Shown piece by piece: positions 8,920-47,500 of a DNA stretch of 64,000 nt; the stretch's first letter is position 1; each line of letters starts with the position of its first letter. Under the pieces are notes generated by a model, which saw only the letters and a program-made list of their open reading frames with translations, searched no databases and had not been told where the DNA came from. The position numbers and the translations under genes were made by a program. Source of the stretch: Thuidium tamariscinum (lineage: Eukaryota; Streptophyta; Bryopsida; Hypnales; Thuidiaceae); NCBI GenBank assembly GCA_947034885.2, contig OX344754.2, forward strand, positions 6,269,001-6,333,000. The letters are read 5' to 3'.

Positions 8920-9221
8920 CCCGGGGAGGACACTTCTTGTGTATTTGGGGGACCCATGTGCGGCGGTGAGGTATTTTTAGGGGGGCTATCAATTACTTGT
9001 AATCATTACATGGCAACATTTTACCATAAAGCCCCTATTTTACCATAAAGCGGAAAAATCATCCATATTATCATCCCTATTTTATTCTTAAAACACTTTG
9101 CCTTTTTTATGTCCCCTATTTTATATATAAATTTCTTATAAATTTTACCCAAGATTATTTAAATGTACCCTATCTTCCGCCGCACGTAGGTTATTAAAAA
9201 ATGGGAAGTGTCCTCCCCTAG
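8920..9221. mobile_element. hAT-like MITE, copy 1 (302 bp, 8-bp TSD)
   Basis: The left end reads CCCGGGGAGGACACTT and the right end reads AAGTGTCCTCCCCTAG, an inverted pair apart from two positions near the tips. The element is bracketed by the 8-bp direct repeat GGTACTTG at 8912-8919 and 9222-9229. A closely similar copy at 16797-17094 has the same ends and its own 8-bp TSD. The 8-bp duplication points to the hAT superfamily. The interior is non-coding, with a GC-rich segment (GCGGCGG) near the left end and its counterpart CCGCCGCACGT near the right. Confidence 0.85.
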
Positions 9222-14153: not shown

Positions 14154-16788
14154 TCTGATAACAACAATTAGAGATTTCTGCTGCTCATTGCAGTAGAACG
14201 TGGACTGGTCCAAGTGATCATGGCGCAAACGATGAAAACACGAAATGGGACGGGAACAAGCGACATTGCCCTAGAATGTCAATGGGAATGGCTGACGCGA
14301 AATCAAAACAATAGTCACTAAATCAGGCGGATCCATTATTCTTCCAAATTTCAATGTAAAGCCAATCAACCTGAAATATTAGAGAAAATTTTGAAAAAAA
14401 CAAATAAAAACGAAACAGAATCGAAACTCGAATTGCAAAGAGGAGATGCGTTTTAGGTCAAAGAAGATCAGCAAGCACGTCGCACGAGAGACAGAGGACG
14501 GGTGAAGGGCTCGCTTCCTTCGGGTACGGGTACGGGGGCCCATTCCCGGTGGAGGGCCTTATTGCCGCCCTCTTCAAGAAAGAAATTTATAAAGGTATGG
14601 AAGATTCAAGGTAAACCATGCGGTCCAAATTCAAAAATCTTTATGAATCTTTTCCATGTTACCTTAGTGGCATTGTAAATATTCATCAAAGATATTTTCA
14701 TTTTTGAGCATTAGAATCTGTTGTATTTGACTAGAATTAGATTTTTTTTCAATTGAAATATTCATTAGGTCGGACCATATTAAAATGGTGAGGATAAAAG
14801 GACAAAAAGAGGTTTACAACAGTTACGGTTATGATAAGGGGGCCCATATTGACACATTTAAATCAATTTGCTACTTCAACCAATATTTTTCAGTAAACTT
14901 TGAAACTGAAAATTGGAATTTCATTCAAAAATCAATTATAGATTGAATATTTATAATTTTCACAAGAATATTTTTCCTTAAATTCAAAATATTAAGTTGT
15001 AATCATCATGATGCATGTTTTTAGATTTTCATTTGAGTGCTTCTATTATATGAGCCTCTAGAAGCATGAGTCCATGAGCCTAAAGGACTATACATATATG
15101 TTAGTTAGTGATGGATGTCTATATTATAGGAACCTTCCATAATTACAATGAAACTATGTTATAGATACCTATATTATAAACATTTATTTTACAAATACCT
15201 TCAATGGTTGTAGGATATATACTTATATATATACACGCAAGGCTTACATGCTCACATTTCCATACTCGCTCACTTACATTGTTGGAATTGTGCCCCTTAA
15301 ATTGTAGAATATTTGCAAAGAAAAGTTGTGAAAATCTATACCATATAAATATAACAAAACTAATACAAGAATCTACAAACATTTACACAAATGTAAACAT
15401 CAAGATTTTGTGTATTTTTGACATGTTAGCATAATTGCACTCATTCATTCTTTGAAATCTAAACATCTTGTCCATTAAGGGTTTAAGGCTAGACAACCAG
15501 TTTTGGTTGCAAAAGGAATAATTAGGAGTATGATGTGAGTTTGGTAACTTAAAGAATGGAATTGTACATAGGAATTATGCAATCAATAGGCCATTAGTTA
15601 TCATTATTTGAATAAATAACTTAGAAGATAGGAAATTTAATGCAGTTCCAATAGAAAACACATACACCATTATGGTAAAAGATACAATGCCTAGAATATG
15701 AGTATGCCATTTCAAACTTACATATTAAAGACTTTGTAGCGTGTGGATAATTCCATCCCCATGATTGTTTGAAAAAAATGTCAAATGACAACCATCAATG
15801 TGTAGAAAATCAAGGGTATGCAGTGAAGTACAATTTGATATATGTAAGACTTTTTAAATGATTATTTGATCATTTAAGTAAGTGCTTGTTCACCATGTTT
15901 GCAACACCCAAATTCATCCTTGTTTAGCTAATATTCTTCAAAACAATATTATATATGAATGTAAATCCTTCATGCTTTCACCAATTTAGAAGGGCTCTAA
16001 GTTTCAATTCTTGGCCAATGCTTTTGATACCACATTTGTTGAAAGTTACCCCTTCCAATGGTCTTTCAACATACATGCCTCCTACATGAAATATGTTCAA
16101 ATATGTCTTGAGTAGTCAATAATGTAGAGGTATCTTGAGTAATGTAGTGATCTCCTTGCATCTTTATGAATAAATAAGTATTCAATAATCTTCTAATTGT
16201 AATGGTAGATATTCTTCACATTATCTTCAAAGGCAAAAAACAATATTTTAAAAATATTTTGTAAAGTAAGAACGTACTATAAACTTTGCTAGTACCATAA
16301 GTGGTTTCATTGTACCTACTCTTGTCATTTCAAGTCATAAATGACAAGAGTAGGTACATTGAAACCATTTATGCAACTAACAAAATTTATTGTATTTCTA
16401 CCTAATTGTACGATTGAATTCAAAGATAAAAAAATTCTTTCACTTTCTATAAGTCAATAACTTGGTTAGCCAATGTTGTTAAATTTTGTGTAAATTTATT
16501 AGAGTATAGTTTTTCAAGGATTAATAACCACCAAGTACCTAATCCTCTTCATCCAACAACCACACAACATAAAAAAAACATTTAAAGTCAAGCCACATGA
16601 AGGATGTTGGTACGTAATAAACTACATTTTCTCCAAGTACCATGAATAAACTCTTTGATCATTGGTGATTAGTCAAAATATGTAGTGAAGAATAATATGA
16701 GTGAATATGATAATTTTGAATTATTAACAAAAATTAATTCTACCCAAAGTAGTAGAGATTGCTAAATGATGGCTTTTAGATGTACACC
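14154..16788. other. Carboxypeptidase upstream region and AT-rich intergenic sequence
   Basis: The first 450 bp upstream of the carboxypeptidase start has mixed composition, including a GC-rich patch around 14500-14575 that is a plausible promoter/5' UTR. I could not assign a TATA box. Beyond about 14.6 kb the sequence is AT-rich with no supported gene. A short inverted repeat near 16310-16370 (ACTCTTGTCATTT against AAATGACAAGAGT) forms a perfect stem. Confidence 0.5.
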
Positions 16789-16796
16789 CTTAATCC

Positions 16797-17094
16797 CCCG
16801 GGGAGGACACTTCTTGTGTATTTGGGGGACCCACGTGCGGCGGTGGGGTATTTTTAGGGGGGCTATCAATTACTTGTAATCATTACTTGGCAACATTAAA
16901 AGAGCCCCTATTTGACCATAAAGCGGAAAAATCAGCCATATTATCATCCCTATTTTATTTTTAAAACACTTTGCCTTTTTAATGTCTCCTAATTTGTATG
17001 TAAATGTTTTATAAATTTTACCTGAGATTATTTAAATATACCCTATATTCCGCTGCACGTAGGTTATTAAAAAACGGGAAGTGTCCTCCCCTAG
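16797..17094. mobile_element. hAT-like MITE, copy 2 (298 bp, 8-bp TSD)
   Basis: Same family and orientation as the element at 8920-9221, with identical TIRs and about 90 % similarity by eye over its length. The flanking 8-bp duplication is CTTAATCC at 16789-16796 and 17095-17102. Differences are scattered substitutions and a short indel near 16900. Confidence 0.85.
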
Positions 17095-17102
17095 CTTAAT
17101 CC

Positions 17103-19692
17103 ACAATCATTGAATAGAATTTTTGGATTGATGATTTCAAAGGTAATATAAGACTTACATGACTAACCTCCATTTTAAAGCCCTATATCATTAAAGTGAA
17201 ATATTCCAATTTTTTAGCGTTGGTCATACCAGTTACAAGGTCAAACATTTGACTTCCAATTGCTAATAAAAATGGTACAAATATAACCTCCTCAACTTTG
17301 AATATTCTACATGGTCTTGCTTTTAGAATTGATACAAAAACAATCTAAAAGACTTTAAACAACTTCTAAATTCCATCCCTTGTAATCAAATAAGATAATT
17401 TTTCAATTTATGTATGACAATGTGTTTCTATTCTCTACCACACAATTCATATTACAATCAATTATAATATCCTAAATTTATAATTTGAAATTGAGTTATA
17501 AGAATTTATCAAAGCTAGTATTTTGTTCATATTTAAGAGATACTCTAAGAGGCTCAAAAAGGGCCTTGGATATTTAGGGGTTTCAAGGTTTATGGTTTTT
17601 CCTTTCAAGTTTAGAACTTGAACTTCTAATTATGATAATTTTCTAATATTTTTTTATTTCACTTCAATTTTAAAGACAATTTTAATGACCATTGCTTCAA
17701 CTAGTTAGAATAGTTAGTAAGTCTTTGAGGGAACATATACTTGTGCTCTTTGAATTATAGAGTGTTAATATAGAAGAGTATTAGATTGGATTTCTTATAA
17801 ACTTCATAAATCTTCCATAAAATTTGGTTTGGGGATATTTTTTGAAATAATTTTAGGATTCTTTTGTCATTAACCATAAATTCAATACTGTACTTGGCTA
17901 TCAAGTTTGACAAATATTAATTTTCAAATTTTCAGAATAAATACTAGAATCTTGTGGATTTGGAAATAAATTTAAAAATTCAGTATATCAACTTTAATAA
18001 ATTATTTGGCATGAATTGTCAACCTTGATAGCTTAGTATGGCATTGATTAATTATTGGCTTCTATTCAATGCTTATAACCACTTGAAGTACTAGAAATAT
18101 AGTGGTGTTTTTCATTGTTTATTTTAATTTTTTTTAATGTATTGGGAGTTTTGGATGTATAGACCCAATGGACTTGATGCAAGTACATAAGTGTTTTGAC
18201 TTTGGATCAAACTCAACTTAGGAAACATTTCTATTGTTGCAAAAAGGCCCTTGACTTTTTGTTTGGAATCAAATTTATAAGGGTTGGACGAAATAATAAA
18301 TGTTGCAATTTAGAGGAGCCAACTAGATTGTATGCAAGTGTGAATTGCAAACTTTTCAATGAAATTTTGAAACACAAATTACATGTATTCTAATAAATGT
18401 TGGCTAGAATAGGTCAACAAACAAAAAAACACAATAACTTCTTACAAACCTCTACTATTAAGCTAAAGACAATATTGTATTTTTGAATAGATTACTTTAG
18501 AAATTTTACACAAAAAACAACTTTTGTAGGAAAAAATGTTCACCTTTATTTTTGTTACACCAAGATTTTTTGTCTATAAAAGAACACGTGTGAAAATTAC
18601 TATATTTTTCAAGGTATTTGAAACTTAAATGACTAGCAATAGCAACCTTCAAACAACCTTGAAGTAGACCTTGAGGTAGTCCAAATTTCAAAAAAATAAT
18701 AAAGATAGATGACAAGAAATTTTTAGATCATTAATTTAGTAATGGCTTAAGTTTCAAATAATTGTCATCAAAGATTTGCAAATCATTTGTACCCATATTC
18801 TTGGATCTACTATTGCACCATCCAACATTTGTTATTAAATTTTGAAATCAATTATCTTAAATTCCTTCTAAATGACTATTAATGATTTTTTTGGTTAAAA
18901 AATCAATTTAGTTTTTAGAAAATACCTTGATTATAGGTCTAGTCCATTTAGGATTAAACTTAGAGTGATAGAAAAAATGGTAGAAGAATCAAGTTGTCAA
19001 GAGAGTGGAAGACTTTTAGGAGCCCAAAGCATATCAAGGTAGTCACATCTAAAACCACCACTTTTTTTTGGTTCTACTATCTCCTTAGACCAAATTCTAA
19101 TTTATTATTGAAGAGTTTGTTAGTGTGACTTCAATAATATTTTATAAATTTCCAAAATTGAAAACATAGAATATTTACTTTTGCCACTAGACTCACCCTT
19201 ACATGGATACCTTGGAAGTATAACTCCCATTAGTTGCCTCAAAGAACTCTACTCCCCTATTGGTTGCTCTTGAGAGATTGTAATGGTTAAGGTCAATGTA
19301 AACTTTAGTGACTCTCTTCTCACTCTTTAGTGTTCTAAGTAAACCATCTCATAGGTGGATGTAAACAAGAAGTGGCAACTTTGAATGCATCTACCTTATA
19401 CTCAAATAGTAGGTCCAAACTTGCCCATTTAAAAGCTTGAAATTAATTTTGGGAAGTTAAACTTTTTGAAATGTTGTTTAGTAATTTTCCTTCAAAGACA
19501 AATGCAATTGACATCTAACTAGAGACATTCCATATTTTTAAGAGCTTCATAGAATTAGTCATGAATTTTTGAAGATACAACACAATCATCACTAAAACTA
19601 TCCACCTTCTAATATGGACACATTTCAAAATAGTAACTTATTCCATTCTAGGAATTATATCACCATTAACCCCTAATACAAGTTGGAACCTA
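17103..19692. other. AT-rich intergenic sequence with a decayed repeat at 19440-19635
   Basis: No gene is supported. The stretch 19440-19635 is a diverged, end-less copy of the TA-inserting MITE family found intact at 32948-33256 and 36998-37310; it shares the block reading CATCTAAC..CATTCCATATTTTT and GAATTAGTCATGAATTT. Confidence 0.5.
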
Positions 19693-19703
19693 AAGTATGA
19701 AGA

Positions 19704-19922
19704 TCCAGGTGGATTGGCCCCCTCGCTCAGCCTTACCACGTTTTATCAGAGGTGCAATCAAAACAAAAAGCCCCCTCATTTGGGCCGTGACCACCCCCTG
19801 GGTAATTCGGGGTCTCTGATCACAAATATGAATTCAAAATTTGCAAAAAAAATTATGTGAAAAATAAGAAACTTCAGCATTCTACCCAAGTGGCCGAGCA
19901 AGGGGGTCAGTTCTCCCTGCCC
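19704..19922. mobile_element. MITE with exact 11-bp TSD (219 bp, Mutator-like)
   Basis: The direct repeat AAGTATGAAGA lies at 19693-19703 and 19923-19933 and brackets the element exactly. The ends are imperfect inverted repeats (GGATTGGCCCCCTCGCTC on the left; the right end read inwards is GAACTGACCCCCTTGCTC). A 9-11 bp duplication suggests the Mutator superfamily. A second copy in opposite orientation is at 35501-35719. Confidence 0.8.
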
Positions 19923-19933
19923 AAGTATGAAGA

Positions 19934-20560
19934 CCATACAAATAGAATGTAAAAATACAAGTGACATTTAGGGTAGCATAGAGTGTCTCAGAGGGCCAAC
20001 CTTTTTTGTAGCCTTCCAAGATCGATAGGGCAGTGTGTTGTGACATTTGCACAATTTTTGAGAATGCGAAGAATTCTGAAAGATTTTCTTGTATTCAGCC
20101 TTGCAATGAAGGAACACAGATACAATACACAATAGACCACATTGTGGTTTGTACCTGCATTAGGGGTTAATGGCTTTCCTCTATTTGCCAGCTTCCAAAA
20201 TGTTGTACTTGTATGGCAAACTTAAAATGATGTTTCCAGGTGCTCCAGCCGTAACAATATGAAACGTTAAATTCAATGACCACACTGCATCACTAAATTT
20301 TTGGGATAGTGGGATAGCAAAGAGAATGCCACACATGGACAAACCTTTACGTCACCACAAAGTTCAATTTTGATGTAAACAGCAATTATATGACTGGTTG
20401 ACTAGTAGTTGAAATCTGAAACTTCTTCAAATCAATGGGTAAACACTACAAACAGCTCTTAAAAGAACCACAGAACCAATTTGCATTCAAATTGACTTGA
20501 TGCTCCCATCAAGAGAAGAAAATCCTACTTCTACACTACCTCTAATGATTTCTTCCGAAT
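19934..20560. other. 3' flank of the MFS transporter gene
   Basis: No open frame of interest. Likely 3' UTR and downstream sequence of the minus-strand transporter whose stop codon is at 20563-20561. Confidence 0.5.
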
Positions 20561-29115: not shown

Positions 29116-29519
29116 ACTTGTTACATTTTGCTCCAACAACAATATGTTTTTCTATAGTAGGTTGAAATAAGAAAGAAAAAATTATTGTAATCAATGTAAA
29201 AGTGTAGACCACAAACCCTTAAAAAATCTAGTGTCCATTCAATGTATGCAAGAAATCTTCGATAGGATCCTGTGAGGTCAATTTTTGGTTGAATGTTCGC
29301 AAAATTTTGACACAAGGTGTGAACATGTACCTCTTTATTAGAAATATAAATTTTTTTAATTATGTGCCAAGATGCTACCTTGAACTTTTCAAGTAGTCCA
29401 AGCAACTTTAGATAGGATATGCAAAACTCTTCCTTTACTTCTAGAATTTAGCAAGTATGTAACTTGCATGATACAAAATCAAATGCCAAGAAAAGGGTGA
29501 AAATCTCACCCGAGGAGAA

Positions 29520-29714
29520 GTTAGTATCATGAGAAAGATGGGTTAGTCATTTTGGAAATCAACCTTTTGGATATTGTAAGAATCATTTGTTTATAAAAAT
29601 CCAAGAACACTCATTTGTGGTCAAACTATTGTACAAGATCTCCTTTTTTGCACAAAATTCTAAAGATGAATGTCTATATTTTCTATCCTACAAAGAAAGA
29701 TTTTATATCATTTA
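29520..29714. repeat. Dispersed repeat interrupted by a TTAA element
   Basis: Similar to 46740-46930 in the TARBP1 intron (anchors GGAATCATTTGT / GAATCATTTGT, GAAGATCTC / AAGATCTCC, AATTCTATCCTACA / TTTCTATCCTACA and TATCATT). The sequence is broken at 29715 by the element that follows and resumes for a short distance after 30668. Confidence 0.65.
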
Positions 29715-29718
29715 TTAA

Positions 29719-30664
29719 CCCCTAAACCCCTAATAGCGTTTTCACCAAAAAAAACTGCTCCAAAACTGCCATTTCTAATACAAGAGCAATTTTTTTTTAA
29801 AAACACATTTTTGACTCATGTAACCGTAGGATCTTATAGTAAGGTGGTTTGTAAACATGTGGTAAAAATTTCAGAAATTTCCACCATGTAGATTGCAAGA
29901 TATAAGCATTTGAATTGACAAAAACTGTTTTTTTATCCCTGCGAAAATCCGGGCAGCTGCACTTCACAAGGTCACATTTGTGTGAAAAAAAATTCAAAAT
30001 GGTGGTTACTCTTTGAATTCTTACTTCAATGTAAGTTGGCTACATTCTCAAAAAATTTCAAACCATTTGGAATTGTACAACATATAGGAAAAAATAAGTA
30101 AGTAGAAAGAAGTAAACAATGAGCCAAAATACTAAATTGTGAACATTTTATTCATGGAATTGAAAATTTTCAATCCCAATGGTTAAAATGTTGAAATAAA
30201 CAATCTACACCTTTTGTTTTTATTTTTTTTCAAAAATATGAAAAATTGAATTAAATGAAGAATTTCAAACTTTTTTGTGCTGTGCAGATTCTGTAACTGG
30301 CTGCAAACTACCCCAAACTTAAAATCTTCATAACTTTTGACTCATTGATTGGAATGGGTTGATTCAAAGCTTCACATGTCTGTATAAACCTAAAGAACCG
30401 ATTTGAAATTTCACTTTTCAAAAAAAAGTTTTTTTGAAAAAGTTTTTTCAGCTGCCCGGGCTGCCCGCCGAGCAAACAAAGTGACATATCATGCCATAAC
30501 TTTTTATCTACCAAGTCAAAAGTTATGAAAATTGTTGGGCCTTAAAGGTACTCCTTGGACACACATTGTATCAAAATTTCAAAGAAAAAAAATAAAAACT
30601 CCATCCGTAGTGAGCTGCCCAAAAACTCTATAATCTCAAAAAACGTTGTTTAGGGGTTTAGGGG
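29719..30664. mobile_element. TTAA-flanked TIR element, 946 bp (piggyBac-like, non-autonomous)
   Basis: Both ends read CCCCTAAACCCCTAA inwards and then continue with a related GCGTTTT / ACGTTTT block, giving TIRs of about 24 bp. TTAA lies directly outside each end (29715-29718 and 30665-30668). The flanks match a paralogous sequence near 46930 that lacks the insertion. There is no transposase: the interior has only short open frames and a GC-rich patch with CTGCCCGGGCTGCCC. The combination of TTAA duplication and CCC-starting TIR is characteristic of the piggyBac superfamily; the family assignment is inference. Confidence 0.75.
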
Positions 30665-30668
30665 TTAA

Positions 30669-32945
30669 ACACTTAGTGTTGGTAGCATCTTCTTAGGAAT
30701 AAAGTCTATTGGCCTTGTCGGGCAAGGTTGGAAAAAATCCTTTATCTTCAAATTTTTTTTCTATGATTTATCAGAAAATTTTCCTATTGTCTATCTATAC
30801 CTTTAGATGAGGTTGATTAATACTTTTATTTATTACTTTGAAATTTCTAAAACCACACATCCCAAAAATCACGTTCTTGGTATCGTTGAAAATTTCTTTC
30901 CAAAGAGGGGTACACGAACTTTGTTTTATGACATTCTAACCTATAACAACAAAAGATATAGAATTTGAAGTTTCTATAAAATGTAAAAAATTAGAAAATT
31001 ATTATATGGGCTCCAAAACTTGCAAATTGTATAACTATACACAAAGATCTAATGAGACTATAAAGTGCCAAAATTGAACCGTCGACATCAAATTCTTAGG
31101 GGTCCACATCACCTCATACTATTCACAAGAGGCCACATGTGACACTTTCTTTTTACAAAAATGACTTGATTTCTTGGTTGAATTTGACCTTCATATAGAA
31201 TAGCTTATTTTAGACATCAAACATTAGTCATTGTATATGTACAAACACCACACCAGTGGAGGTAGCAATTAAATGCCCAATTTCCTCAAAAAAAACCTGG
31301 CAGCTTCAAGCCTATAGAAGAAAAGAAGGTAAATGTATTAAAAAATGCCAAACTATAATCATGGCCTTGCATACAATTTCTACAATTTTTCTAAAATCTC
31401 ATTTCATCCATTGTGCAAACATAAGCTAATACATACAAAACTTGCATACAAAAACTACATACACAAAATTGCATATTCAAAATTTGCCTCTTTCACTTAA
31501 AGCCCCCCAAATGAAGGAACCAAAAAACTTAAAACCTTCTTGAAAGAAAGGTTACATAACCCTTGGCTTACAACCATTAAAAAGAAAACTACACCACACT
31601 ACCATATCCAAGTGCCTACAATTGGTCAATCCAAACCAACCCAATCTAAAAGCTTACAATCCATTTTCAACTACTTAAGGAATTCAACATAGCTCTAAAC
31701 TGCATTTGGTGGGGGGATGTTTTTTTCCTGTATAGGAAAATATATTATTTTTAGACAAATTTGAAGTTTTTTCATATTCTTTTGCTCCAAAAAAAGATAT
31801 TGTGAATTTCTTTTGTCAAGATTTTCTTAAACCTATTCTTGATATATAGATATGTCTAATTCCAACCATGGGTTGGTTATAAAATCGAGAAGAAATCAAT
31901 GGCTCCTAATACATTAGAATGGATCAATTGCTTCATCATTCCTCCTATGTTGAGAAATAGAACAACTTAGACATTGGAAATTGAATGGGTGATCGAAAAG
32001 GGGTCAAGACATTAGACAATCCAATCCAATCCAACCCAACCTTTGTTAGATGAACTTCATTTTGTCTGCAATCCGTTTCTATCACCCTACATTTGGCCCC
32101 ATTTCCACCCATTCCACCATCCAAATTTGTCCAAAAATGAGCCAAATCTACTAAGAAATCTGACAAAATCAATGTATTAATATCATTTAGAGTAATGTAT
32201 CAATAGGTGATTGCAGAAAACTTAGATGTTAATAGATTATAAGAAGGTGGCTATGGGTTGCTATTAGGGTCCTCGTGACCCTAGTTATGAGTGCCTTAGT
32301 AATTCATGGCTAAATACTTCAAAAATTCACAGAAATTACAATACTAATTGGAAAATTATAATTCCACTTGGGTCCAATTCGTGAAACATGCGCACACCTT
32401 TGAAAGTATGTGCCCCTCTAAGAATTAGCCCCAACATAGTTAGGATGGTAATAGGCTTGTCTACCTTAACCCTTGAACGCCGCCGCAAACGTTTGGCGTC
32501 TTTTGAATGGCAAAGAATCTTTTCTTGTAGGACAAAAGTGCAACTTGTCATCCTCAGTATTACGGGTGAAAAGGGAAGATCTTCTATAGTACTTTGACTT
32601 CCAATGAGTATATTTGGCTCAATGTTTTCTTTTCATTTCTTGTAAAGTGCCATAGTGGCAATACTTCATTTTATTATAGTGCTCCAAATTTCAACATTCA
32701 TCCATATATTGAATAGAAAATATCATATTAGCACATAACATATATCTATCATCCTATTTTCATCCATTATTTGACAATTTCATCCAATAGTTTAAAAAAA
32801 ATTGAAATTTATTGGCAATTTCATCCAAAATTTTACTGTTTATTTTCTATAGGCATGGTGTTAGGTAAAAAAATTTGGTGCAATTTTGCTCCAAATTGCC
32901 ACAAAAATACCCATTGATTTGGCTTATGCAAAGCAAATGATGTCA
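30669..32945. other. AT-rich intergenic sequence, no supported gene
   Basis: Open frames at 31945-32172 (minus), 32336-32551 (minus) and 32388-32597 (plus) overlap or are isolated, and none carries a recognisable domain. A less AT-rich patch at 32400-32580 has no identifiable content. Confidence 0.5.
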
Positions 32946-33854: not shown

Positions 33855-34406
33855 CCCTTTAAAGCTTAAGGAGCCCCAAGCAACCTCTTGAATTCTTCTA
33901 GAATCAAATTTGCATATTGAAATTTTATAATTTAATTGAAATTATTATTTTTTTACAAATAAGCATTCATATCTTCTATCTAATGTGATTTTTAATTATT
34001 TTTGGAATAAAAAATGAAATTTATATGATTTTTTTAAATTTTATGTCTTTGAAAAATTATAGTAATTACAAAAAAGCTCACTTTACAATGAAATTTTTAT
34101 TGAAAATAGAGTTCATTATATTGAACATTATGGTGAAGTTGGCATGCTCTCTTTAGTTATACACAAATGAATTCAATAGAGAAACATGGTCCACAGTGCA
34201 TTTTGAAACTCTAAAATTCCCAACTTCAAATTGCCATAGACAAATCATCATTGCTCCAAATTTGATTGCCAATGGCTCATTAGAAGCGGAATACCCATGC
34301 CCTCACATTTTGTCCATACCTCAAGAGCAACTAAGGCCAAGAGAGTGTTCTAATTCCCAAAATTCAATTTTAAAGAACCAAAATTGGCATACTAGGCCCT
34401 AGAGGA
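33855..34406 (+). mobile_element. TTAA-flanked TIR element, copy 1 (552 bp, piggyBac-like)
   Basis: Flanked by TTAA at 33851-33854 and 34407-34410. The left end starts CCCTTTAAAGCTTAAGG; the right end read inwards starts TCCTCTAGGGCCTAG, so the TIR has decayed relative to copy 2 at 40886-41434. The two copies align end to end at roughly 90 % or better by eye. No transposase; the open frame at 34196-34402 is a chance frame. Confidence 0.78.
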
Positions 34407-34452
34407 TTAAGAAGGATAATTGGGAGTATTGTAAGGCAAAACTAACTAAATA

Positions 34453-34828
34453 TACAGTGGAAACATCCAAAAACATCCAAATAAGGAATTCAGAATAGTT
34501 GGAGGCAGCGTTTTCTAAAAATGATATTTTTCTAGTATTAGTGAGTGAAAATTCATGAATATTAAAAAAAAAATAGATTTTTTGGATATAGTATGTAATT
34601 TCTACAAATTTTCAAAGTGTTGGCTCCCTAGACCTGTGGAACTGTCTTGTACGTGCCCCCAAAATTGAACCTTGCGAAAATCAGCACTCAGCCAACCAAA
34701 TTTCCTTCTATGTCCTTTAGTTGTGTCAGCAAATTACAATCATACATGTGGCAAAGTCTACTGACGCATTTGGGTGAATCTACATTCCACTACAAAGAAC
34801 AGGTGTGGGAATGAGTATTTTGTCCTTA
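34453..34828 (-). repeat. Repeat unit R, copy A (reverse)
   Basis: First of several copies of a ~390-bp unit in 34.4-39.5 kb. In the forward sense the unit opens with AAGGGAGAAACACCCATT and closes with TGAATTCCTTATTTGGACG followed by TTTCCACTGTA. This copy is inverted. No coding capacity; the parent element is not identified. Confidence 0.75.
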
Positions 34829-35063: not shown

Positions 35064-35454
35064 ATAAGGGAGAAACACCCATTTCCGTCCCTGTACCTAT
35101 TCCAAGTCCCTAGAGTGTCACTGAATCTGTCCATGAGCGTCCATTAAAGTGTCTGACAAGTGTTTAACTTTAATTTGCTGATGCAATTTGAAGACACATG
35201 TATAATTTTCATTCATTGACAACTGATTTCAGCAGAGTTTGGTTTAGGGTACACCTATAGGATGGTTCAAGTGGTCTAGGGAGCCAATTCTTTGAAAATT
35301 TGTAGAAATTACATACTGATTCTGAAAATTTTAATTTTTTTTTGAATATTCATGATTTTCTCTCGCTAATACTAGAAAAATATCAGTTTTAGAAAAAGAT
35401 GCCTCCAACCATGCTGAATTCCTTATTTGGACGGTTTTGGATGTTTCCACTGTA
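35064..35454 (+). repeat. Repeat unit R, copy B
   Basis: Full-length forward copy carrying the opening block (35064), CTAGGGAGCCAAT near 35277 and the closing TGAATTCCTTATTTGGACG near 35415. About 235 bp separates it from the inverted copy A. Confidence 0.78.
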
Positions 35455-35500
35455 AGTAGGTGTAAGTATGCAAGAAGGACGGAAGACAGATGGGAGGACT

Positions 35501-35749: not shown

Positions 35750-36571
35750 GACTACTATAGTGTGCTCTCTATTTTTGACATATTCAAAATAAAATAAAAA
35801 GTAATTTTCTGATTTTTTTGAATTCATAAAAAACTTCAAGCTTCAATAACTTTCACAACAATATAGGTTGAACCAACTGTGAAACAAAGCTTGTTCAGCC
35901 TTTTTCATAGAGAGCTTTATGACAGTACTAAAAACGCAACCACAGGATGTATAGTCTAGGAATCTCTTTGTAACAAAATAATAAACAAAATAAACAAAAC
36001 AAGCAACCTAACTTAAAGATATTATGGTCTAATGTGTCTTATGTTGTTGCCACAACCAGAATAAAAGTAAAAGTAATTTTTCAAAATGTTTTTAATTCAT
36101 AAAACCTTCAAAATGCAGTGACTTTCTTCCCATACATCGAAACAGCATAAAACAAAATTTGTGCATCCTTCCTCACAAAGAGCTTTCCAATAGTACAAAG
36201 AATGAGAATAGAGAACCATGGTCCCAGAGATCTCACCATAAGTTAACATACAAACCAACCAACCAACCAAAAGAAAACAAACAACCTAATTTAAAAATAT
36301 AATGGTCTTATGTTGTTGCCACAACCAGAATAAAAGTAAAAGTAATTTTTCAAAATGTTTTTAATTCATAAAACCTTCAAAATGCAGTGACTTTCTTCCC
36401 ATACATCCAAACACCATAAAACAAAATTTGTGCACCCTTCCTCACAAAGACAAAGAGCTTTCCAATGGTACCAAGAATGAGAATGGAGAAGCATGGTCCC
36501 ACAGATCTCACCATAAGTTAACATACAAACCAACCAACCAACCAAAAGAAAACAAACAGCCTAACATAAAG
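35750..36571 (+). repeat. ~278-bp tandem repeat, three units
   Basis: Units are about 35750-36023 (strongly diverged), 36024-36301 and 36302-36571. The last two are nearly identical, including GTTGTTGCCACAACCAGAAT, the GACTTTCTTCCCATACATC block, GAGCTTTCCAAT and a CAACCAACCAACCAAC tract; the third unit has a short ACAAAG duplication. Non-coding. Confidence 0.88.
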
Positions 36572-36880: not shown

Positions 36881-37914
36881 AGCGCCATTCCGTGGTGTTT
36901 GAATGACTGCAGGGGGCTAGAAGAGGAGCTGAATAGTAGTTTTTCCATCCATATTTTTTTTAATGCCCTTCCATGTTGAGTTACGAAGAGTATCCTAAGG
37001 TAGGAGGTTCATAAACCGCTCATCTAAGAGCTAAAGCTGACTTTTGGGGAGGTAGAACTTCTTAAAATATTTTTCAGTAAATTTTCCTTGAAAGGCAAGA
37101 GAAATTGGCATCTAACCCAAGTTGTTCCATATTTTTTGAAGCTTTGTAGAATTAGTTATGAATTTATGAAGTTGCAGAAAAGTGCATTTTTGTTGGCTCT
37201 AAAACCACCCACCTCCTCAAATGCACACCACTTGTACATTCGAAAGTGCAAAATGTACCTCCAGAGCCTGATTGGTTTTAGAACTTGCTCCATTTTAGGA
37301 CCTCCTACCTTAGTGAGTTTCTAATCTGACTGATGTTTGATTTCATGTGGTTGAGAAGTAATTACAAAAAACGGATGGCAGAATTTGTTGTTTTTAGTGT
37401 ATTTTGAGAAATTGAGTAAATTTGAAATTTCTCCTTGAAAATGACATTTTCTGAATTTGAGCTCAACTAACAAAATGAAGGTCCTCACTTCTAGTTTCTA
37501 CTCCAATTGGAATTTTGGAAAAATTCGTAAAATCGAATGTTTTATTGCAATTTGAATTCTGGCTGCATTTATAAATGTGACTATAGCCTAAAAATAGGTG
37601 TACACGGAAGTTGAGTTTACACCATAATGTTTTTCACTATAATGTACACACATGGTGAAATTTTCAGATTTTTTGAGATTATTTTCTATTTTCTATTATT
37701 TTTTCTTCACTTTTTCTTCAAAAATTGTCATGAAATCAATTTTCCTCAAAAAAATCTGAAATTTTTGTGAAGTACAGAAGAGATGTACTTTCATCTCTGA
37801 AAAATAAAAATAAAAATTTTCAAACATGACTGGTTCAAAAATGGTAACAAATTGAGTGACGGGGGAGGAGTCTTCAAACTAGTGGTCATAGGCTCGTCGT
37901 TTAGGGATTAAATA
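36881..37914 (+). repeat. Dispersed repeat, copy with a nested MITE
   Basis: About 36895-36997 and 37311-37900 align with 27185-27865; the break is the 313-bp element at 36998-37310. No open frame or recognisable transposon ends. The parent element type is unknown. Confidence 0.7.
36998..37310 (+). mobile_element. TA-inserting MITE, family 'AGGAGGT', intact copy (313 bp)
   Basis: The left end is AGGTAGGAGGTTCATAAACC; the right end read inwards is AGGTAGGAGGTCCTAAAATG. TA flanks both sides (36996-36997 and 37311-37312). The host repeat occurs without the insertion at 27.3 kb, which fixes the boundaries. A plus-strand open frame (37088-37324) is incidental. Confidence 0.87.
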
Positions 37915-38241
37915 TGTCCCTAGAGTGCAATTAATGTTTTTGTCACATGTGTGATTGTAATTTGCTGATACAATTGAAGGACACATAAGAAAATCTAGTT
38001 GGCTGAATGTAGATTTTTGCAGGGTTCAGTTTTGGATGCACCTATTGCATACTTTCAGTGGTCTAGGGGGTCATTACTTCAAAAAAACATAGAAATTACA
38101 TACAATGTTCAAAATTTCTATTTCTTTTTTTGAATATTCATGATTTTCACTCGCTAATACTAGAAAATATCAGTTTCAAGAAAATCTCCCTCCAACTATG
38201 TTGAATTCCTTATTTGGACGTTTTTCGGTGCTTCCACCGTA
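37915..38241 (+). repeat. Repeat unit R, copy D (3' part)
   Basis: Begins within the unit (TTTGTCACATGTGTGATTG) and runs to the closing TGAATTCCTTATTTGGACG. It lacks the opening block, which may lie at 36805-36880 across an insertion. Confidence 0.7.
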
Positions 38242-38257: not shown

Positions 38258-38633
38258 TAAAGGAGAGACATCCATTTAATGCACCTGATCCTTAGGTTGG
38301 ACAATAGACTCATCCAAAACCATCCCTATATTACAAGTAATGTGTTTGCAAAAGGCTTGTCTCTAATTCGTTGATGCATATTAAGGACACATACCAAAAT
38401 CTAATTGGTGCACTATTGATTTTAGCAACGTTCAAATTGGGGGGCATCTATTGAACAATTTAGTGGTCTAGGGAGTTAACACTTTGAAAAATTATAGAAA
38501 TTACATATGACATCCAATTCTTTTTTAATATTCATGATTTTCACTCACTAATATTAGAATAATATATATATTTTTAAATTGCCTCCAATTATGTTGAATT
38601 CCTTACTTGGACGTTTTTGGGTGCTTCCGCCAT
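38258..38633 (+). repeat. Repeat unit R, copy E
   Basis: Nearly adjacent to copy D in direct orientation, more diverged (opening AAAGGAGAGACATCCATTT, closing TGAATTCCTTACTTGGACG). Confidence 0.7.
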
Positions 38634-38900
38634 AAATTAGTTTGCAACCTTGTAAGAGCTAATTGCATTTTAGGGGAAGCTAAACTCCAGTCGAAACAAT
38701 TTTCACTAAATTTTTGTAAGAAGAAAAATGGAATTGGCATCTCACCTAAATTGTTTAGCATATTTTTGAAAACTTTGCAAAATTAGCTACAAATTTTAGA
38801 AGCTAAAATGGAGTGGTGACTAGAAGCAACTACCTCCTGAAATATTCACTATTGATGCGCTGAAGAAAGTAAAATGTACCTTTGTATTGGTGGTCACTTT
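38634..38900 (+). repeat. Decayed copy of the 'AGGAGGT' MITE family
   Basis: The body matches 36998-37310 (GGAATTGGCATCTCACC, AAAATTAGCTACAAATTTT, AAAATGTACCT). The terminal inverted repeats are not recognisable. Confidence 0.55.
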
Positions 38901-39071: not shown

Positions 39072-39472
39072 TAAGGGCAAAACATCCATTCCTACACTTG
39101 TTCCTTGGAATGGACCATAGATTCACCCAATTGTATCAATAGACTTTCCTTAATGTGTTCGCCACATGTGTAATTATAATTAGCTGACACAGTTGAAGGA
39201 TACATAGGAGAATCTGGTTGGCTGAGTGCTGATTTCACAGGGTTCAGTTTTGGGGGCACCTACCAGACGGTTTCGCAGGTCTAGGGAGCCAATACTTTGA
39301 AAATTTGTAGAAATTACATACTGTATCGGAAAAATCTTTTATTTTTATTTTTTAATATTCTTGATTTTCACTCACTAATACTAGAAAAATATCATTTTTA
39401 GAAAACACTACCTCCAAGTCTCCAACTATGCTGAATTCCTTATTTGCACGGGTTTGGGTGTTTCCACTGTAA
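39072..39472 (+). repeat. Repeat unit R, copy F
   Basis: Full-length forward copy with the opening CTAAGGGCAAAACATCC, the internal GGTTGGCTGAGTGCTGATTT and the closing TGAATTCCTTATTTGCACG. It contains a small duplication of CTCCAA near 39413. Confidence 0.75.
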
Positions 39473-39884: not shown

Positions 39885-40151
39885 AGAGGCTCAGAAACCG
39901 CTGATTTAAGAGCTGATCCCCCTTTTTCATGTATTTCCTTAGATGGGAATATTTTTAGCTCACTTTCGAAACAATGAGAAGCAGATGAGGAATCTAACAC
40001 AAGTTGTTTTATATTTTTTGAAGCATTATTGAATTAGTTGTGAATTTTCAAACAAGTTGTGTCATAAGTCCCTATTTATTATGACCCTAAGTAGGTCTTC
40101 CATAAACCATTCACTGTGACCCTACGTAGGTCTTCCATAAATCATTCACTT
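39885..40151 (+). repeat. Decayed 'AGGAGGT' MITE with a 35-bp end duplication
   Basis: The body matches the family (CTAACACAAGTTGTTTTATA, GAATTAGTTGTGAATTTT). Near the right side the segment GTAGGTCTTCCATAAA.CATTCACT is tandemly repeated (40083-40117 and 40118-40151) and resembles the family's inverted terminal sequence. Confidence 0.55.
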
Positions 40152-40885: not shown

Positions 40886-41434
40886 CCCTTTAGGGCCTAA
40901 GGAGCCCCAAGCAACCTCTTCAATTCTTCTAGAATCAAATTTGCATATTAAAATTTTATAATTTAATTTAAATTATATTTTTCTACAAATAAGCATTCAC
41001 ATCTTCTATCTAATGTGATTTTTAATTATTTTTTTGGGAAAAAATGAAATTTATATGATTATTTAAAGTTTATGTCTTTGAAAAATCATAGTAATTACAA
41101 AAAAGCTCACTTTACCATGAAATTTTTATCGAAAATAGAGTTCATTATATTGAACATTAGGGTGAAGTTGGCATGCTCTCTTTAGTTATACACAAATAAA
41201 TTCAATAGAGAAACATGTTCCACAGTGCATTTTTGAACTCTAAAATTCCCAACTTCAAATTGCCATAGACAAATCATCATTGCTTCAAATTTGATGGCCA
41301 ATGGCTCATTGGAAGCAGAATACATGTGCCCTCACATCTTGTTCATACTTCAAGAGCAACTAAAGCCAAGAGAGTGTTCCAATTCCCAAAATTCAATTTA
41401 AAAGAACCAAAATTGGCATGCTAGGCCCTAAAGG
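40886..41434 (+). mobile_element. TTAA-flanked TIR element, copy 2 (549 bp, piggyBac-like)
   Basis: Perfect 14-bp TIR, CCCTTTAGGGCCTA at the left and TAGGCCCTAAAGGG at the right, with TTAA at 40882-40885 and 41435-41438. It aligns end to end with 33855-34406. It ends only 91 bp beyond the stop codon of the TARBP1-like gene (41526) and so probably lies in or next to that gene's 3' UTR. Confidence 0.82.
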
Positions 41435-41525
41435 GTTAAAGAACCATCTCATGTCCATTTCACAGCCATCTAAGTTATAGGACGGTCCTTAAAGCCTGAA
41501 CTGTTTTTGAGCCCTCTCCCATTGC

Positions 41526-44500: not shown

Positions 44501-47500
44501 AGCAAGGAGTCGAGTCAACGGACCCAGAGCTGACTGAAATCTCCGAACGAGACAGTGCCTCTGAAGACAACAGAGACTGTAAATTCTTTGAGTCGTCAAG
44601 CTTAGGTAAGGAGCCGCTGGACCTCTCCTTGCCAATGGAGATTGACAAGTTCTGAACTCTCGAAAGGTCATCTGGTGTGATAAGTTTCACTCTGAAACAC
44701 TCCTCTGTTGAAACCTTCCTAGCGATCTGCCAAATAAGAGGTAAGCGATGTCATTAAAAAGCCAAGCGCATGAAATAAGTTGTGCACTAGCTTTTCCTTC
44801 AGAAATTGTGAACAGGATTAAGATTTTTGACTTCCTAACCTCGTGGGTCGAAGAAGTTGCTTACATTTAGAAAGCGAAATATCTTCCGAACTACTGCAAC
44901 TGAAACTTGGTCGATTGGAACATCATTTGCCTGTAAAGGTCGGGGCAAAAAAAATTACCATTCCCTCATGTAGAGCACTCATATCTAATTTTAAAACACA
45001 TTACGCAAGTATCCAGGGATATAATTATCCTCCACGCAGCCGCTGGGTACTAAAAATGAGCCAAACTTCTCGCTAGATTAACTCTGATGTATCAATTGAA
45101 ACTGAAGAAGTTCTAAGGTCCTTCTTTTACCTCAGCTGTGTAATCCCATCCTTGATTACAGTAGACGCCTTGGGGTGTTGTTGCAAACACCGGGTCAAAA
45201 GTTTCCAAATATAGCTCCATTGAAGGTTTCATCCTAGCGAAGAACTCAGCAATAGAATTGGAATTTACAAATGATATCGATTTTTCTTCTTCAAACATTC
45301 GTGAGGTTTGAGAGTATTTTAATGTAAACCGCGGGGAAATAAGTTCAACCTCTGGGAGAATCGATAGTTCCCGTTTTAATCTTAACCGGACACTATAATC
45401 ATATGGATGGAGACTCACCTCATGCAATCGGCGCTCGTCTCCATGTACCTTGCAAGTGATTGCAAGCAAGCCCTGTCTAAGCAGCTATGATCTGTGTTTG
45501 CACAATCAACAGGGCCAGGAGGAACCTGTTCGCTGCCAGTTATCCATCCACGCAGCATGTGGTACACGAGTACCTGACAATGGGGAAACAGGTCCAGTGG
45601 CTTCATCATTAAGGTTTCTATCTTACCTCTGAACCTCAGAATGCAATCGAAACCACAGTGATGCACACAGGCTGGTAAAATTGACATTAATAATCAGGTA
45701 TTGCAAATGAAGTCTAAACCTGCCCTCACATGATTAATTATAGAGCCAAACCTGTGCTTATTCCCATAAGCGGTATCTAAACCGAGTTTGGTTAGCTTTC
45801 CATTGATCAATTTAAACAGTCTATTAAGGACAATGCTAGAGGTAAAGTTGACATTAACCTTTGAAAATCAGGTATAGCAAATCACGTCTAAACCTGCCCT
45901 CACAAGATAAATTCAAGAGCCAAACCTGGGCTCATTCCCATAAGCGGTATCTAAACCGAGTTTGGTTCTAAGCTTCAGTGAGGTGTTCAAAACAGTCTAC
46001 TAAAGACAATGCTAGAGGTAAAGTTGACATTAATCTTTGAAAATCAGGTATTGCAAATCAAGTCTAAACCTGCCCTCACATGATTAATTCAAGAGCCAAA
46101 CCTGGGCTCATTCCCAGGCTAAGCAGTACCTAAGCCAGGTTTGGTTAGCTTTCAGGTGATCAAATTAAACAGTCTATTAAAGACAATGCTAGAAGCCGTT
46201 TCACTATACCGTAAGGCTCCTTTTGACTCTCACTGGAGCAATATGCTTAACTAGTACGCACCTGCGTTGATGCGCTGGTTCTTAGATCATTACTCATCAT
46301 GAAAGGAAAAATTGCAGGCAGCACTTGCTGTAGATGGTCCAGTTGCAAAGCTGCTGAAGTTGTGAACAGCACCACTTTGACGGCTATAGAAAGATAATAT
46401 GAAAGAACCTGAAAACCATTTGCAGGTACCACATGGGAACTCGCAATCAATCTCCCGTGCGTGATGATAATGCACAGTGGTATGGAGTAACAGCCGAGAG
46501 CTATCATATTCTCCACCCTTCCAAGGAAGAAATTCACATGTACAAAAGTTATTACTCCCTCTGTCCCACTAAGAGCTTCTCAAATTCTTCCTGCAAAGAT
46601 TGTAAATCAGCCTAATTAGGAAGCTTTTAGTGGGACACAGGGAGTACATGTGTGTCACTCAACATGACAAAACTGAGTTCATGCATGGTCATACTTGTTT
46701 CAGAGGGCTAATATTGAGAAGTTAACCTTGGAAAGACATAGGGGGTCCTTGTGGAAATCATCCTTTCTAAAACTGTGGGAATCATTTGTATTTAAAAAAA
46801 CCAAAAAACTCATTTGAAGTGGAAGTGATGTAGAAGATCTCTACTTTCAACCACTAATTTTGAGGATGAATAGTTGTAATTCTATCCTACACAGGAGAAT
46901 GCTGTATCATTCATTGGATACTAAATGTCCATAGTGTCCTTTTGGGGTTAAAGTGTTTAGAGATTTGAAGTTTAGGATTTTCAAGTGCCTGGAACTCTAG
47001 AATCGAGGAAGAGTATGGATCTTAGGTTTTAGTTGGACCAATGAAACTACACGAATTGCATTGAAATCCACCATTTTAACGAATATAAGTGGGTGATTGG
47101 AAGAAACACTTCTTGATTTTGTTGTGTTTAACAATACTTATGCTTTTTTTTGGAGTACTTTAAAATTAGAGAAATAATTTTTAAATTAAAAAAAATATGG
47201 AGGATGTATATGCTTACAAAATGAAGGTAACCATTGAAAGAAAATCATAGAAAATTTCTCTAAACAAGAGAACTAGAAAAGTGAAAAATCTCAAGAAAAT
47301 ACATACTTTGATGTTTCAATAAGGAAAAAATAGGGAAAAAAAATTTTAAATAAAAAAAATGGTCATTTGTAACAACTTTATGGAGATGGTCATCTACCAA
47401 AAAAACCCCACCAAACTAGTTTTTTCATGTTTCAAAATGCAAGGAGAAAGAGGCTTACTTTATAGACTTCTACACAACATATAAATAACTATTTCTAAAA

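Follow-up and report, generated by a model that had tools for sequence, protein, structure and literature searches.

piggyBac is a widely used animal vector that duplicates the tetranucleotide TTAA, as do the Kolobok and Sola3 superfamilies, Kolobok using another transposase. Short non-autonomous relatives have come up in animals: coral MITEs are said to be piggyBac-derived, short and non-autonomous, and mPok of Daphnia is reportedly a piggyBac-derived MITE. Among plant elements, Stowaway MITEs (Tc1/mariner) are characterized by a TA duplication and CTCCCTCC-like tips. Many MITEs are shorter than the 946 bp of the element described below.

According to excerpts of PMC7351741, the piggyBac transposase forms TTAA hairpins on the excised ends, which are opened and then joined to a TTAA target; the specificity for TTAA is linked to unpairing of the target, and seamless excision is a feature of the system. 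Excerpts of a bee study discuss CCC and CAC tips of piggyBac, name CACTA and TACCG motifs for the bee piggyBac TIRs and mention that piggyBac has been identified in plants (PMC10140906). A plant review names PiggyBac as one of the class II superfamilies, with a focus on its use as a tool (PMC10794571), and a C-fern genome table includes a small PiggyBac class. A MITE survey of 207 plant genomes, including four bryophytes, reports in its excerpted text primarily five superfamilies, piggyBac not being among them (PMC12550479). The remark of an earlier note on this DNA that piggyBac elements are little described in land plants agrees with what we found in the open-licence PMC literature: among the matches listed, and as far as their excerpts go, there are passing mentions for plants, whereas an account of piggyBac in mosses, or of a moss carrying this much of it, is absent, a weak negative.

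Here we analyse a piggyBac-type element, C, in a 64,000-nucleotide stretch of moss DNA (hereafter the window, meaning the whole stretch) and in the genome that contains it. Its mechanism and family are already known; what is new is this member, and the surprise lies in the host and the scale. With the piggyBac superfamily, as represented by Trichoplusia ni piggyBac and piggyBat, C has in common the TTAA duplication and short inverted repeats ending in CCC (or CAC), but unlike these elements it carries no transposase. It would join the coral MITEs and mPok as a short non-autonomous element of the piggyBac group, its host, in contrast to theirs, being a land plant. With Kolobok it shares the TTAA duplication, and with the Stowaway MITEs the condition of a small non-autonomous plant element.

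Results

Ends and anatomy of element C

The limits of C, its length and the TTAA on either side are exactly where the earlier note had placed them (Table 1). The inverted repeat given there as 24 bp is present, but it is perfect over 15 bp (19 bp counting the TTAA) and reaches 24 bp only with a gap. When the window was scanned with the 21-base pattern of TTAA plus TIR, allowing up to three mismatches, the two ends of C were the only matches (0.00 expected). Perfect TTAA-flanked pairs of at least 10 bp occur twice in the window, whereas 40 random sequences contain 0.075 on average and never more than 1; at 8 bp there are three, the random sequences averaging 1.05 and reaching 3 at most, and since the observed number equals the random maximum, the 8-bp pairs alone are not beyond chance. 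We also compared all 256 possible 4-bp flanks of CC-tipped pairs spaced by 150–2,500 bp. TTAA accounts for 3 of 3 such pairs at 8 bp, 3 of 6 at 7 bp and 3 of 13 at 6 bp, and for 3 of 10 of the 12-bp pairs with up to three mismatches.

C is non-coding and does not encode a PF13843 transposase (the piggyBac transposase domain); as it lacks a DDD transposase of its own, we file it as a non-autonomous member. The window as a whole also appears free of transposase, in line with the earlier note: tblastn with 43 transposase frames gave no match in it at E ≤ 0.01.

Table 1. Coordinates of element C, its host repeat and the other TTAA-flanked elements, in positions of the window
Feature	Position	Strand	Basis
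TTAA target-site duplication, left copy	29715..29718	.	Sequence; TTAA on both sides in 39/40 genome copies, ATAT on both sides in 1/40
Element C, 946 bp, very probably a non-autonomous piggyBac-type element; longest stop-free frame 80 aa	29719..30664	+	
Left terminal inverted repeat of C, CCCCTAAACCCCTAA	29719..29733	+	
Right terminal inverted repeat of C, perfect match to the left one	30650..30664	-	
TTAA target-site duplication, right copy	30665..30668	.	
Older repeat interrupted by C, left part	29515..29718	+	Flank alignment
Older repeat interrupted by C, right part; 24/37 bases identical to the paralog	30669..30705	+	
Empty-site paralog, repeat uninterrupted, TTGG at the target	46716..46954	+	Alignment, BLAST
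Element A1, TTAA-flanked, CCC/TCC-tipped, 92.7% identical to A2	33855..34406	+	
Element A2, 550 bp, TTAA-flanked, TIR CCCTTTAGGGCCTA	40886..41435	+	
Candidate element B, 497 bp, TTAA-flanked, CCCCTAAT tips (weak)	19670..20166	.	

Empty sites of C

C lies within an older repeat, which we call D. When the two flanks of C are joined around a single TTAA, they align gap-free across the join to the paralog that had been proposed as an empty site, in a single BLAST piece spanning the join with 69% identity. The right side of the join contributes only its short stretch to this alignment and is weak by itself, the right flank alone scoring 30 against the paralog where shuffled sequences score 29 on average. 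A third copy of the repeat, inverted and located near 32430–32720, aligns through the same stretch. Note that a GGGTTAA end is seen in two of the three window copies of D, which is possibly an old TTAA element in its own right.

We then compared the joined flanks of the 29 other fetched C copies with the fetched loci and the window, and obtained a join-spanning match for 7 of the 29; 11 pairings, from six C copies, were aligned as empty sites. Around one intact TTAA, gap-free empty sites were found for L009, for L017 (window 39886–40077) and for L023 (versus L027). The alignment is gap-free near the join with another tetramer for L005 (CTAT), for L015 versus the window (ATTA) and for L017 versus L003 (TTGA). 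Both pairings of L011 display TTGA together with small gaps nearby, and those of L015 with L004, and of L023 with the window and with L064, contain gaps or agree poorly around the site. For L029, the match of the joined flanks covers just 38 bases.

Copies of C in the genome

The window corresponds to positions 6269001–6333000 of contig C6 in a 363-Mb assembly of 19 contigs. A LEAFY gene points to a moss as its source: the LEAFY domain PF01698 has 6 matches over the cut-off, and the DNA-binding part of the best one, L086, matches chain 4bhk (FLORICAULA/LEAFY homolog 1, from Physcomitrella) with 238.5 bits, versus 173 for 9fwy and 172 for 2vy1, the LEAFY of Arabidopsis. At two of the type-defining sites L086 has Asp and Cys, as in type II LEAFY. 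Genes of type II come primarily from mosses, and one from a liverwort (PMC6588583). The search of the assembly with C returned 77 matches in all, out of 6,985 first-look candidates, not all of which were scored and which are not to be taken as copies. The 40 best-scoring matches, including the copy in the window, are 95–100% identical to C over at least 940 of its 946 bases, the remainder being shorter or weaker. The ends of all 40 copies were examined, 30 of them as loci and 10 as end pieces. TTAA is present on both sides of 39 copies and ATAT on both sides of the last one (L022), so that the earlier expectation of TTAA at every flank stands with this one exception, and the duplication is 4 bp long in 40 of these 40 best-scoring copies, with no other length among them. 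The boundary does not extend further: in a profile of 30 copies, the positions directly beyond the four bases carry ~0 bits of information. The outermost 12 bases read exactly CCCCTAAACCCC at 76 of the 80 ends; in L024, the right repeat is shorter by one CCCCTAAA unit and the terminus reads GGGG-TTAA. Pairwise identity among 30 copies averages 97.9% and their divergence from the majority sequence is 1.2%, for a sample of best-scoring copies and therefore biased towards young, query-like ones. The C copies are young and recently amplified.

The 16-mer composed of TTAA and the tip, TTAACCCCTAAACCCC, is found 501 times in the genome (249+252) versus 8 times (7+1) for a reversed control. The first 100 places listed form 35 pairs, 34 of which are 925–959 bp long, and 30 ends are unpaired. 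The C family probably amounts to a few hundred copies. Being non-coding, homogeneous in length, bounded by a TIR and a TSD and present in many copies, C has the attributes by which MITEs are recognized.

The 35th pair, 1,804 bp long, was considered as an autonomous relative and rejected: here a TTAA element of 869 bp with CACTATACCG tips has inserted into an internal TTAA of a C copy, C positions 533–536 being present on both sides of it. The inserted element itself (positions 422–1290 of L088, on contig C1, from 20183321) has CACTATACCGCCC tips, is flanked by TTAA at either end and represents a second, CAC-tipped kind of TTAA element.

piggyBac transposases and autonomous elements

A profile search for PF13843 identified 116 scored places, all over the cut-off, out of 658 candidates, and the domain was found in 0 of 14 control genomes. 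At 11 of these places (L042–L052), a 1,023-codon frame runs without a stop; a 3' TTAA is present in 11 of 11, followed by 11 different flanks. These copies differ at 0–2 of 3,980 bases, with 36 of the 55 pairs identical, a near-identity that would reflect a recent amplification of autonomous elements. The transposase P0001 (991 aa of the L042 frame) matches PF13843 at 4.7e-79, and by sequence it matches piggyBat (9c0f) at 1e-27 and 6x67 ('Transposase'), which we take to be T. ni piggyBac, at 9.3e-23. The alignment to piggyBat extends across both halves of the catalytic domain, including the DE, DN and GVDxxDQ motifs. We also observed that ~500 residues precede PF13843 in P0001, where the domain starts at residue 501, with no other Pfam match there at E ≤ 0.01.

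Frames from other loci are 30–77% identical to P0001, and several of them are broken; the DN and GVDxxDQ motifs and a Cys-rich C-terminus were recognized by eye in many, not all, of the frame pieces. Out of eight extended transposase loci, seven lie between TTAA and CCC tips spaced by 4,888–5,938 bp, a result that is supporting rather than blind since the end-pair search required TTAA and partly preferred CCC tips; at the eighth, L032, none of the possible end pairs in the stretch examined was convincing. With 4.9–5.9 kb and frames of up to ~1,000 codons, the moss autonomous elements are larger than the bee piggyBac elements, for which excerpts of PMC10140906 give 2.23–3.52 kb and ~580 aa.

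Relation of C to the transposase-bearing elements

The ends nearest to C that we found belong to T42 (at L042) and T33 (at L033), both of which encode PF13843 transposases. Their 5' ends read CCCCTAAACGCCGGCAGCG, the terminus of the CGG-type copies of C reads CCCCTAAACCCCCGGACAGCG, and the two align over 21 columns with 18 matches, one mismatch and two 1-base gaps. The sequence TTAACCCCTAAACGCC occurs 94+135 times in the genome and 0 times for the control, and 12 of the 74 ACGCC-type ends on contigs C1 and C2 have a scored transposase place no more than 8 kb away. For C-type ends the corresponding number is 0 of 148 (148 of the 501 ends, one per pair, tested against the 116 places). The C-type ends with unusual inner ends, 9 of the 501 places, are among the 148 without a transposase within 8 kb.

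The earlier note had supposed an autonomous partner elsewhere and suggested looking for a longer relative with a DDD transposase. piggyBac transposase genes are indeed present at 116 places, and piggyBac elements with TTAA and CCC ends do exist in the genome, but none was found with the exact CCCCTAAACCCC end of C among the 148 C-type ends tested. A direct partner therefore stays hypothetical, and mobilization of C by the transposase of a related family would be likeliest. BLAST detected no similarity to C inside the autonomous elements read, a long match at L061 lying outside the element, and thus gives no indication that C arose from one of them by internal deletion.

Other elements and repeats of the window

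A second TTAA/CCC family is represented in the window by its copies A1 and A2. Their BLAST similarity ends one base outside the TTAA on the left and at the TTAA on the right, and a more permissive alignment continues for ~40 bases further left, across gaps in an A-rich stretch. Genome-wide, each of the 40 scored matches to A2 (of 220 candidates, compared over the element itself) spans 548 or more of the 550 bases with 93–100% identity. Candidate B was tried as a third TTAA family and is weak: the 52 other matches listed all fall within its bases 24–268 (19693–19937), and no second full-length copy is among them. This interior part of B is a repeat.

Elements of other kinds are also present. 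A 300-bp element with CCCGGGGAGGAC tips occurs in two copies, 91% identical, at 8920–9221 and 16797–17094, with different 8-bp direct repeats as judged by eye (GGTACTTG and CTTAATCC); the pair looks like a hAT-type MITE. Near the empty-site paralog, at 46555–46644, lies a 90-bp Stowaway-like MITE with CTCCCTCTGTCCC tips and, by eye, TA on both sides. A repeat of 300–400 bp is present in five diverged copies within 5 kb (34444–34828, 35124–35455, 37911–38241, 38268–38642 and 39072–39472), tandem repeats occupy 45692–46193 (176-bp unit, 2.9 copies) and 36030–36564 (269-bp unit, 2 copies), and 16275–16394 is a 120-bp imperfect palindrome, 84% self-complementary.

Discussion

The TTAA (once ATAT) duplication, the sharp ends, the empty sites, the recent amplification and the uninterrupted transposase frames are directly established. 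The piggyBac reading that the earlier note drew from TTAA and CCC tips gains support from the 39 of 40 copies with TTAA on both sides, from the sharpness of the ends and from PF13843 at 116 places. With high confidence we assign C to the piggyBac superfamily, as a non-autonomous DNA transposon (a large MITE) in the nuclear genome of the moss, most likely served by a transposase in trans.

As plant telomeres consist of CCCTAAA repeats, which the tips of C resemble, one could instead imagine an immobile, telomere-like or duplicated stretch with TTAA at its ends by chance; since the copies are dispersed, constant in length, sharply bounded and set in unrelated flanks, and since empty sites exist, this is extremely improbable. 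The same can be said of a Tc1/mariner-type element that duplicates TA and has the tips ACCCC...GGGGT, for which the TTAA would be illusory. TTAA does contain TA, and the inverted repeat continues through it, so that one copy and its empty site cannot separate TA from TTAA. Across the family, however, the outer bases of the TTAA are constant in 39 of 40 copies, and their T and A would have to be coincidental each time; moreover, the ATAT on both sides of L022 assigns the bases adjoining CCCC to the target. There is hardly any room left for this possibility.

A placement of C in another TTAA-targeting superfamily, Kolobok or Sola3, residing alongside piggyBac in the same genome, deserves slightly more weight and is nevertheless improbable. 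It would account for the TTAA, which both superfamilies duplicate, and it is compatible with the finding that none of the 148 C-type ends belongs to an autonomous element with the exact end of C. Against it, the closest ends, those of T42 and T33, are carried by elements encoding PF13843 transposases, and the CCC tip style is shared by 7 of the 8 extended transposase elements.

Judged by its anatomy, C as a piggyBac element fits those steps of the piggyBac mechanism that leave a trace. We infer that C was moved by one of the genome's piggyBac transposases, and likewise the chemistry of the movement. Autonomous elements elsewhere in the genome would supply the transposase in trans, which would most likely recognize the CCC-tipped inverted repeats of C; C would be cut out through TTAA hairpins and joined into a new TTAA, thereby duplicated. 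The ATAT/ATAT copy would represent a rare off-target event.

Taken together, the data make it likely that this moss lineage harbors diverse, still-transposing native piggyBac elements, with transposase frames of ~1,000 codons, recently amplified autonomous elements and several families of TTAA-MITEs, C included. If true, natural piggyBac activity becomes testable in a plant. The 116 transposase places, the 11 near-identical uninterrupted copies and the 501 C-type ends would show the superfamily thriving in a land plant. They would provide a native plant transposase for testing, give TTAA repeats a class of their own when moss genomes are annotated, and make it possible to ask why piggyBac seems so scarce in other land plants.
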